This document shows, in pieces, positions 3,419 to 10,248 of a stretch of 64,000 nt of DNA. A program made the translations under genes and the position numbers. The notes beneath the pieces are model-generated. The model had not been told where the DNA came from. It saw nothing but the letters and a program-made list of their open reading frames with translations, and ran no database searches. Every line of letters starts with the position of its first letter. Within the stretch, counting starts at the first letter, position 1. The stretch is from Desulfurococcales archaeon (GTDB lineage: Archaea > Thermoproteota > Thermoprotei_A > Sulfolobales > Fervidicoccaceae), in contig WYEQ01000012.1 in NCBI GenBank assembly GCA_009904015.1, positions 155,188-219,187 on the forward strand. Reading direction: 5' to 3'.

Positions 3419-3737
3419 GGAGGTCCGGCTATAACCCACCTTCAGTACTACAGCGGTATTAGGCTTAGCGGGCTTGAAGCCGGCTTGGCCCCGAATTCAT
3501 CGCCGGCTTCCCTTTCTCCGCGGGGGACGGCCGTTTCATCGATTCCCACCGTGTCATCAACCGCTTATCGGCCATGTTGCCAGGCCTACCGGTATCATCT
3601 ACATTCACGGTGGGCCGTGCCGTTTCTGTGCCGTTGCCACGGGTTTCCCCGTGCTCCTTTCGGAGCCCCGCCCGGGGCTGGAGGATGGTGTTTCCCCAGG
3701 CTCCTCAAGGGAGCCCGTAACCGCTAGCCGGACCTCC
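3419..3737 (-). ncRNA. rnpB: RNase P RNA (archaeal type)
   Basis: A 319-nt GC-rich block in AT-rich surroundings with no credible protein. Its ends pair perfectly (GGAGGTCCGGCTA with TAGCCGGACCTCC), forming P1. Read on the minus strand it has a CR-I-like GGAAACACCATCC near the 5' end that can pair with a CR-V-like CTGAAGGTGGGTTATAG near the 3' end to make P4, which matches the universal RNase P layout. A GGGGAAACCC hairpin followed by GGCAACGGCACAGAAAC resembles the P9 and CR-II/III region. A TATA-like AT-rich box lies about 20-30 nt before 3737. SRP RNA was considered but its conserved S-domain motif is absent. The RNA is the catalytic subunit that trims tRNA 5' ends. Confidence 0.82.
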
Positions 3738-7627: not shown

Positions 7628-7882
7628 ATGCCTATTGTCAAGTACATCGCTAATTTAAAAACGAGAGTAGGGGTGGACCAGGAGAAGATTGAAGCTAGGA
7701 CTCTACGTGAAGTTATCTCCAAGGTCTCAGAGAAGGTGACTGACTTAGTTGATTTCGATGGAAAAACAACAGGACTCTACGTGATATTGGTAAACGATGT
7801 GGATCACAGGCTTCTAGGAGAAGAATATATACTTGGGGATAATGATGTAATCACAATTCTTCCAGTAATCCATGGTGGATAA
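7628..7882 (+). CDS. Ubiquitin-like MoaD/ThiS-family protein (possible SAMP)
   Basis: 84 residues ending in a Gly-Gly dipeptide (PVIHGG), the hallmark of MoaD, ThiS, Urm1 and archaeal SAMP proteins that are activated as C-terminal adenylates. The beta-grasp fold is suggested by VKYIANLKTRVG at the start and LGDNDVITILPVIHGG at the end. Roles range from sulfur carriage for molybdopterin or thiolated tRNA to protein conjugation; the sequence does not decide between them. No E1-like activating enzyme is near. It ends 2 bp before the phosphoribosyltransferase start, so the two are probably cotranscribed. Confidence 0.82.
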   Translation: MPIVKYIANLKTRVGVDQEKIEARTLREVISKVSEKVTDLVDFDGKTTGLYVILVNDVDHRLLGEEYILGDNDVITILPVIHGG

Positions 7883-7884
7883 AG

Positions 7885-8496
7885 ATGAATGATACAAGGT
7901 TCTTAACTGTTACTTGGAATGATATTCAGCAAGCGTTGTTTCACATAGCTGAACAGATAAATCACTCGGGAGTCAATGTTCAGGTGGTCGTTGGGGTGCT
8001 CCGTGGAGGGTGGATTCCCGCCAGGATTATTTCAGATTTGCTCGGCGTAAGCGAGGTTGGAGCTATAGAGATAAAGTTCTATAAAGGTATCGGGGAAAGA
8101 GGAGAGAGACCTGTTATTACGCAGCCATTAATCACCGATGTGAGAGGAAAAGAAGTTTTAATAATAGATGATGTCGCTGATACAGGCAAGTCTATTCAGA
8201 CAGCAACCACAGTTGTTGGTCTTCATGGAGCGAAAACGATACGCACAGCAACCCTCTACATAAAGCCTTGGAGCACGATTAAACCAGATTTTTACTACGC
8301 AGAAACTGATAGATGGATTGTCTTTCCATGGGAGCTAAGAGAAATAATTGAAGAGTACATAAAAGCTACCTATAAGGTTCTGCCAAGAGTAACCGATGAT
8401 TTATCCAGAATCACTGATGATATAGCAGTGCGTTTTGGTCTACCCAGAGAAACAGTTACGAGAATACTTAAGCTTTTGTTATCCAGCTCAAAGTGA
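7885..8496 (+). CDS. Purine-type phosphoribosyltransferase
   Basis: 203 residues. The PRPP-binding motif is VLIIDDVADTGKS at about 92-104, and the N-terminal VVGVLRGGWIPARIISDLL gives the pyrophosphate loop. These are typical of archaeal hypoxanthine/xanthine/guanine phosphoribosyltransferases, which salvage purine bases with PRPP. About 40 C-terminal residues after the catalytic domain (VTDDLSRITDDIAVRFGLPRE) look helical and could be a small extra domain. The base specificity cannot be told from sequence alone. The stop overlaps the next reading frame. Confidence 0.85.
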   Translation: MNDTRFLTVTWNDIQQALFHIAEQINHSGVNVQVVVGVLRGGWIPARIISDLLGVSEVGAIEIKFYKGIGERGERPVITQPLITDVRGKEVLIIDDVADTGKSIQTATTVVGLHGAKTIRTATLYIKPWSTIKPDFYYAETDRWIVFPWELREIIEEYIKATYKVLPRVTDDLSRITDDIAVRFGLPRETVTRILKLLLSSSK

Positions 8497-8501
8497 TAAT
8501 A

Positions 8502-8981
8502 ATGATTAGTCAACAGGCATCAACGATAAGAAAAATAATCATTGATGCTGAGCCAATATGCGTTGTTATGACCAAGGATCACCTAGGTCTGGAAAAGTTT
8601 CTTGAGGTTGACACATATTTTGCTTATAGCTCTAATCACCTAGCAAAAGCGGTTGAGGCCACGCTTTATTCTTTTAGAAAAGGCGAGAGTCTCCGTAACC
8701 TGAAGTACGAGCTTTACAGAAGGCTTATGGGCATAAGGGAGCTAAGGAAACTCCCTCTTGATAAAATAGGTAAAGAGGATTGCAACATATATGTATTGAG
8801 TTGCGATGAGCTAGGTTCTATAGGGTTAAGCGAGCTTACAGAATGCGGTTATGGTGCCGAAAAAATTCTTTATTTACTAAGAGAGCTATCACGGTATCTT
8901 GAAGTAGACGAAGAAAGGGTCGAAAACTACTTGTTATCAATGGTTGAGGCCACAAAGTTCAACAAATGGCTGGTTAGCTAG
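8502..8981 (+). CDS. Conserved-looking protein of unknown function
   Basis: 159 residues from ATG at 8502; a GTG at 8493 overlapping the previous stop is an alternative start. No known domain was recognised. The protein is mixed alpha/beta at the start (IRKIIIDAEPICVVMTKDHLG) and mostly helical afterwards, with a Cys pair at DCNIYVLSCDE and a third Cys at TECGYG. It lacks membrane segments or a signal peptide. It sits directly downstream of the phosphoribosyltransferase with overlapping ends, which suggests cotranscription but says little about its job. Confidence 0.6.
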   Translation: MISQQASTIRKIIIDAEPICVVMTKDHLGLEKFLEVDTYFAYSSNHLAKAVEATLYSFRKGESLRNLKYELYRRLMGIRELRKLPLDKIGKEDCNIYVLSCDELGSIGLSELTECGYGAEKILYLLRELSRYLEVDEERVENYLLSMVEATKFNKWLVS

Positions 8982-9029: not shown

Positions 9030-9161
9030 TTACTCTTCTTCCTCCCACCACTCTTCCTCTTCTTCCTCCTCTCCCCAGAGTTCTTCCTCTTCTTCTTCTT
9101 CCTCCCACCACTCCTCTTCTTCTTCCCAGAACTCATCTTCCTCGAAGGACAAACTCCTCAC
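9030..9161 (-). CDS. Tiny Glu/Trp-rich acidic protein, probably with a frameshifted N-terminus
   Basis: The pyrimidine-rich tract here encodes, on the minus strand, 43 residues of which 27 are Glu and 6 Trp: FEEDEFW followed by Glu runs of 5, 8, 7 and 4 separated by WW, LWG and WW, then TAA. The in-phase start is GTG at 9161. Just upstream an ATG at 9190 opens MSQKKG..., but it runs into TGA after ten codons. One extra A in the A7 run at 9177-9183 would join both into a 53-residue protein starting MSQKKGNNRGVRSLSFEEDE. A TATA box at 9221-9229 is correctly placed for ATG 9190. The function is unknown. Confidence 0.55.
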   Translation of the reverse strand: MRSLSFEEDEFWEEEEEWWEEEEEEEELWGEEEEEEEWWEEEE

Positions 9162-9220
9162 ACCCCGATTATTCCCTTTTTTTGAGACATAAATATTGGT
9201 ATCGGTTCCTCCAAAAAAAG

Positions 9221-9229
9221 ATTTTTATA
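9221..9229 (-). promoter_or_regulatory. TATA box of the Glu/Trp protein gene
   Basis: TATAAAAAT on the minus strand, centred about 36 nt before the ATG at 9190. A transcript starting some 26 nt downstream would have a leader of about 10 nt. This supports ATG 9190, rather than GTG 9161, as the natural start of the small acidic protein gene. Confidence 0.55.
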
Positions 9230-9258: not shown

Positions 9259-10248
9259 CTACCCGTACTTGGTTAGTCCTAAACCTTCAACCAGTATTTT
9301 TTCTAGTTCTTCGAGGTCTTCTCTTGATAGCTCGTTCAGCGGGACTCTAACTCTTCCTCCTCTTAAACCGAGGGCATTCATTGCTGCTTTTATAACGCTT
9401 ATAGAAACATAGCTCGAGGTGTATGGTGGTGGTAGAATAGTTGTTGTTGGTCCATATTTTAACTCCATTTTTGAGAAAAACCTCTCAAGCAACCAAATCT
9501 TTTCTCTAATCTCATCAATTTTGTCAAAGTTCCTGGTCAAACCAGCTTCGAGAAGCTCAGATGTCATTTGTGGAGCAAAGTTTGATAGCCCAGAAGCAAA
9601 TCCTGCAACGCCTAAGTGAAAGGTAGCGCTGTACCACCACTCTCCTCTTCCTTGCCATATAGCGAGCATATCACCCGCTGTCTTAAGTTGCGAGTAGAGC
9701 GTTGGCACTGAGGGCGTGTTTTCCTTAACTCCCACCACGTTGTCATGCTTTTCAGCCAGGGCACGAAGAAGATGCGGCTTCATGTATATCTTCGATACAT
9801 CTGGGTTATTGTAGACTACTACTCCAATGTTGATTTTCTTAGCGATCTCGCTGTAGTAGTTTAGAAGACCGTTCTCGTTTGGGACGATATATGATGGAAG
9901 AACAATCATCACGCCACTAGCTCCAAGGCTTTCTGCTTTCTTGGTTTTCAAGAGAGCTTTGTGAACGCTTGGCTCTATTATCCCGGGTATAACAGGGAAT
10001 GAGGAGCCCGCCTCCTCTATTGTTATATCCACTATTCTCTCCCATTCATTTTCGGTGAGTGCGTATCCCTCACCAGTTGTTCCTCCTGGAGTAAGAACGA
10101 ACGGCTTGTTCTTTGCTTTTTCTTTTATGAACTTAACAAGCTCTCTGTAAGCATCATAGTCGACTTCGCTGTTTTCCTTGAATGGCGTTACAAGAACGCA
10201 TTGAACGATGCCCTTCTTCAAGAAACTCCGTAACTGGTTGATATCCAA
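9259..10248 (-). CDS. Dihydrodipicolinate synthase/N-acetylneuraminate lyase family protein
   Basis: 329 residues with a TIM-barrel DapA-family layout: GGTTGEGYALTENEW at about 54-68, the Tyr-containing VVYNNPDVSK near 146-155 and the Schiff-base Lys in VVGVKENTPS near 172-181. Family members make or cleave bonds of pyruvate-derived keto acids. The position next to a tripartite carboxylate transporter, rather than near lysine genes, suggests a catabolic aldolase or dehydratase. The substrate cannot be assigned. The start is TTG at 10248 after a GGGAGATGATG stretch; the gene is divergent from tctC. Confidence 0.85.
   Translation of the reverse strand: MDINQLRSFLKKGIVQCVLVTPFKENSEVDYDAYRELVKFIKEKAKNKPFVLTPGGTTGEGYALTENEWERIVDITIEEAGSSFPVIPGIIEPSVHKALLKTKKAESLGASGVMIVLPSYIVPNENGLLNYYSEIAKKINIGVVVYNNPDVSKIYMKPHLLRALAEKHDNVVGVKENTPSVPTLYSQLKTAGDMLAIWQGRGEWWYSATFHLGVAGFASGLSNFAPQMTSELLEAGLTRNFDKIDEIREKIWLLERFFSKMELKYGPTTTILPPPYTSSYVSISVIKAAMNALGLRGGRVRVPLNELSREDLEELEKILVEGLGLTKYG

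Follow-up and report, generated by a model that had tools for sequence, protein, structure and literature searches.

What does it mean when the minus strand of an archaeal DNA tract reads as glutamate and tryptophan almost from end to end? Is it a gene, and if it is, what could such a peptide do? The tract lies in a stretch of 64,000 nucleotides (the window, hereafter) from contig WYEQ01000012.1 of a 1.33 Mb archaeal genome. The original prediction held that the tract only looks like low-complexity DNA and in fact encodes a charged, aromatic peptide, with a probable frameshift near its start. Two-letter ORFs of low complexity are easily overlooked in gene prediction, and search tools mask them.

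The gene and its start

The minus-strand translation, (RS)LSFEEDEFWEEEEEWWEEEEEEEELWGEEEEEEEWWEEEE*, has 40 residues, of which 27 are Glu and 6 Trp, with two WW pairs. EEWWEE matches the window twice, while 0.00 matches are expected from 100 shuffles. The frame is open from 9224 down to the stop at 9030-9032 (-). By itself this openness proves nothing, since the tract is almost pure purine and the other two frames of the purine-rich strand are open as well. Conservation is therefore the deciding evidence.

There are two in-frame starts, GTG at 9161 and TTG at 9152. Based on the sequence and its homologues, we prefer TTG, which gives the Glu/Trp (EW) microprotein gene MSFEEDEFWEEEEEWWEEEEEEEELWGEEEEEEEWWEEEE at 9030-9152 (-), 40 amino acids long. 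With this start the protein begins MSFEED..., resembling MSFEEEEWWEE... of the relatives, and a ribosome-binding site, GGGGTG (9161-9166, -), stands 8 nt before it, in agreement with the enrichment of GGTG in relatives and within the 6-10 nt that separate GGTG from the start in most relatives possessing it. The 43 residues originally proposed do match the GTG start (9159-9161, -), but that start appears less likely, because GGTG would overlap GTG.

The original prediction also listed an A7 run at 9177-9183 (-), TATA-like DNA and, in a different frame, the ATG at 9190; all of these are indeed present. We disagree with what was made of them. A frameshift in the A7 run, or a start controlled by slippage there, is rejected: the run lies upstream of the TTG start, the EW frame already comes with a start codon and a ribosome-binding site, and no shift is required in relatives. 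Nor is ATG 9190 a good candidate for the gene start. It overlaps the TATA-like AATATTTA (9190-9197, -), which is found at -45 to -38 from TTG, where the TATA-like hexamers of relatives peak (-45 to -36). Hence ATG 9190 probably belongs to promoter DNA, and the frameshift proposal becomes unnecessary. The succession of AATATTTA at 9197-9190, GGGGTG at 9166-9161 and TTG at 9152 is the layout seen in relatives. A second TATA-like element, TATAAAAA, is located at 9222-9229 (-), that is -77 to -70. A ten-codon ORF does run from ATG 9190 (9158-9190, -), its TGA overlapping the alternative GTG; it is probably there by chance.

Distribution and selection

The open frame was sought in relatives and was found there with the Glu/Trp order kept, so the original prediction survived the test it had set itself. 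EEWWEEE occurs in 89 of the 214 genomes of the host's order, never at more than one locus in a genome and often twice within the ORF; the reversed pattern, as a control, has 0 matches in these 214 genomes. When 84,980 prokaryote species were scanned with a 24-base pattern for EEWWEEEE, 75 matches were returned. All are archaeal and all are stand-alone Glu/Trp ORFs of about 24-45 residues, from Ignisphaera, Pyrodictium, Pyrolobus, Staphylothermus, Zestosphaera, Fervidicoccus, unnamed Desulfurococcales and, in one case, a contig labelled Njordarchaeota. A pattern with a single Trp finds the same ORF in families without WW; it matched 38 of 80 genomes sampled across the phylum, a few of the 38 being something other than the EW ORF (e.g. 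L259, L260). The Sulfolobaceae form, for example MIEEDWEDIEEEDWEDIEEEDWEEEEW, was revealed by inspection of the ABCE1 locus and not by a pattern, and in 11 of 12 genomes (whose assignment to this family is inferred) it lies directly upstream of ABCE1. Searching with a neighbouring protein against genome contigs retrieved no relatives; it was pattern searching that succeeded. The scan of a virus collection gave 4 matches, none of them an EW gene. Judged from these genomes, the EW micro-gene is a single-copy gene conserved through the phylum Thermoproteota, and its product measures about 25-50 amino acids, nearly all of them Glu apart from spaced Trp or WW. The contig labelled Candidatus Njordarchaeota (L167) shows the complete Thermoproteota gene order, EW gene included, which is either a binning error or a genuine case from outside the phylum.

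We gathered 159 distinct coding sequences through Glu/Trp patterns or acidic content. Their overall composition, 70% Glu and 17% Trp, is partly a product of searching by pattern and acidity, and the members are related, so that counts among them are not independent. The median length is 28 amino acids and the median net charge -19.

Differences between related pairs fall on codon positions 1, 2 and 3 in the proportion 108/83/431, and outside the codons of the search patterns in the proportion 67/46/189. GGTG is present within the last 22 nt before the start in 83 of the 159 (24 expected), mostly at a spacing of 6-10 nt. Third positions vary most, and both starts and ribosome-binding sites are conserved, so that purifying selection acts on the peptide itself; selection for such a peptide was originally proposed. 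A reading of the tract as a basic K/R/G peptide was also considered and fails the codon-position test, for in that reading the sites that change fastest would not be third positions.

One could still argue for low-complexity DNA or for a sequencing error in the A7 run, given a purine-rich tract open in every frame. Conservation, third-position bias, starts, ribosome-binding sites, single copy number and synteny refute this, and in our opinion its probability is close to nil. The EW tract is almost certainly a real gene.

The claim of regular Trp spacing is correct in that the spacing is non-random, with an excess at 5, 9, 10 and 13 residues and a depletion at 2-4, but it is not fixed. This fits aromatic docking points with acidic spacers between them rather than a one-sided helix. 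An amphipathic helix was rejected as an account of the spacing, since the excess is not at 3, 4, 7 and 11. AlphaFold2 predicts a single long continuous helix (pLDDT 94). It tends to draw helices for acidic sequences, and such a helix neither favours nor excludes docking.

No match to the EW peptide was found in Pfam, NCBIfam or PDB, and no description of such a Glu/Trp microprotein in the open-access literature (subscription literature was outside the search). Relative to these sources the family is new. An overlooked two-letter ORF turns out to be a conserved gene, present in the majority of families in its archaeal order and through a phylum, and this widens the notion of what a protein gene is.

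Gene neighbourhood and a possible partner

The EW gene belongs to a conserved island with the order S17e, MoaD, phosphoribosyltransferase, Cgi121, EW, TFS, ABCE1 and FBPase, and with the thermosome gene at one end. For ABCE1, S17e, TFS, MoaD, thermosome and FBPase the names come from the sequences themselves, and clustering relied on profiles made in this analysis. Cgi121 was identified by NCBIfam NF011465, with an E-value of 9e-24 in an orthologue and only 0.028 for the copy in the window. Part of the island is retained here: a MoaD/ThiS-like protein (7628-7882, +), the phosphoribosyltransferase (7885-8496, +; Pfam PF00156, 4e-24, and synteny) and, convergent with the EW gene, the probable KEOPS subunit Cgi121 (8493-8981, +; the weak NF011465 hit and synteny). 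Upstream of the EW gene is a dihydrodipicolinate synthase family gene (9259-10248, -; Pfam PF00701, 2.6e-42), which was found beside the EW gene in none of the relatives examined. Rfam recognizes only a tRNA and an RNase P RNA in the window, the latter being archaeal (3420-3736, -; RF00373, 186 bits).

Among the 159 genes, 125 adjoin ABCE1 and/or Cgi121. ABCE1 is the most widespread neighbour. Directly upstream of it on the same strand lie 83 genes, some of them 40-90 nt away, and outside the class ABCE1 follows on the same strand, at a distance of up to about 1.2 kb, at 20 of 39 loci. In several lineages, including that of the window, the EW gene does not adjoin ABCE1, which in the window genome is on another contig. 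Lineages where the EW gene has moved share no single recurrent neighbour. At four loci from one family of the order (L218, L220, L221 and L091) the moved ORF stands tail to tail with a candidate MtaB-like methylthiotransferase, near a CdvB/Snf7-like gene, both of which we take to be such from reading their sequences. The substrate of such an MtaB-like enzyme is t6A tRNA, which KEOPS produces.

Does the arrangement upstream of ABCE1 mean that the ORF is a cis-acting leader? Acidic runs would destabilise the translating ribosome (intrinsic ribosome destabilisation, IRD), and the ORF would sense the state of the ribosome and tune the downstream abce1 (or tfs-abce1). Acidic nascent chains do destabilise ribosomes, and mgtL is a leader of this kind (PMC11282234, PMC9718836); the same-strand genes just described are arranged as such a role requires. 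However, 34 of the 159 are encoded on the other strand from Cgi121, still inside the island, and others are elsewhere, while the kind of peptide remains unchanged. These opposite-strand cases speak against a purely cis role. Spaced Trp residues are also not known to be required for ribosome destabilisation. TATA-like DNA in the gap between the EW gene and ABCE1 is no commoner than chance, which speaks neither for nor against an operon or a separate ABCE1 promoter. Altogether we consider a leader improbable.

An inversion inside a conserved island that leaves the same kind of peptide in place suggests, on the contrary, a product acting in trans. We favour, tentatively and at a little less than an even chance, the idea that the EW peptide serves ABCE1 or ribosome recycling in this manner. 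It would be a polyacid whose Trp "stickers", spaced by Glu, dock into a pocket of the partner, and the partner would most likely be ABCE1, or ABCE1 on the 30S subunit. The peptide may then be an accessory of ribosome recycling, and its action would resemble that of the acidic N-terminal motif of eukaryotic eIF3j, which is centred on Trp.

Adjacency alone is not function, as the island also holds Cgi121, TFS, S17e and the thermosome gene. The peptide could instead bind another basic or nucleic-acid-binding partner (RNA polymerase/TFS, KEOPS/Cgi121, ribosomal or chromatin proteins), either mimicking a nucleic acid or acting as a chaperone, its linkage to ABCE1 being nothing but inherited gene order. 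The strong negative charge would suit such a role; Cgi121 is a neighbour in 89 of 159 cases, and TFS intervenes before ABCE1 in several lineages. On the other hand, Cgi121 and TFS are each less widely adjacent than ABCE1, and in Sulfolobaceae the ORF remains directly upstream of ABCE1. This explanation seems to us unlikely.

ABCE1 is common to archaea and eukaryotes, and its archaeal accessory factors are little known. The EW peptide is a clear candidate for such a missing ABCE1 partner.

Comparison with known systems

One close parallel is eIF3j/Hcr1, which directly binds ABCE1/Rli1 and aids recycling (PMC5737393, PMC7196836). The acidic motif of eIF3j docks through one conserved Trp, although into eIF3b rather than ABCE1 (PMC2824034), and an acidic run with conserved Trp is likewise seen in EW peptides, in an alignment of 32 relatives. 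The role of eIF3j as a partner of ABCE1/Rli1 in recycling would be a second likeness, the binding of ABCE1 by EW peptides being presumed. There are differences too: in eIF3j the motif is inside a larger multidomain protein and has one key Trp, whereas EW peptides stand alone and the window protein has several. Pfam, NCBIfam and PDB gave no match that would indicate homology to eIF3j/Hcr1. The parallel is one of composition and of a shared presumed partner, not of homology.

To our knowledge, eukaryotes are known to have an acidic-Trp co-factor of ABCE1 only within eIF3j. It is possible, though we hold it doubtful, that these stand-alone Glu/Trp microproteins are an unrecognised, phylum-wide ribosome-recycling factor, corresponding in archaea to the co-factor borne by eIF3j, whether through analogy or through distant descent.

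Lto1, the second known helper of eukaryotic ABCE1/Rli1 that relies on a Trp motif, suggests a different connection with ABCE1. Rli1 is delivered to the Fe-S machinery through the C-terminal Trp of Lto1, and the eukaryotic signal is [LIM]-[DES]-[WF]-COO- (PMC10623007, PMC4523923). By this model the C-terminal Glu-Trp of EW peptides would recruit a CIA-like machine of archaea, so that ABCE1 receives its two [4Fe-4S] clusters in the way that yeast Rli1/ABCE1 is served by Lto1. The EW gene does adjoin the gene of an Fe-S protein, and of the 159 sequences 129 end in W and 9 in F (138 together), usually with E just before. But position -3 is Glu/Asp and not [LIM], internal Trp residues are conserved as well, the deca-GX3 domain of Lto1 is lacking, and 20 sequences end in Glu, including the window protein with its EEEE. 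The authors of the motif further report that it is absent from archaeal homologues of CIA clients. In our opinion an Fe-S maturation adaptor is distinctly unlikely.

Two further systems bear comparison. IRD leaders such as mgtL are also short ORFs, often upstream of a gene, and an acidic run near the N-terminus is found in EW peptides too. They differ in length and composition and in the conserved Trp, and a leader is upstream of the regulated gene on its strand, whereas the orientation of the EW gene relative to ABCE1 is not conserved (83 upstream, 34 on the opposite strand). LysW proteins are small and acidic, as EW peptides are, but their N-terminal zinc ribbon is absent from the window protein and from typical EW members. 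The ribbon is present only at an exceptional, distant locus (L252/L291, G282:C3 at about 44.5 kb), where a LysW-type zinc ribbon (PF21344, 6.5e-7) is followed by a long Glu/Trp C-terminal tail in the style of the microprotein. Zinc-finger-like proteins with Glu/Trp tails are encoded in two distant genomes (L245, L246; L284, L285), which suggests that the EW stretch also occurs as a fused tail.
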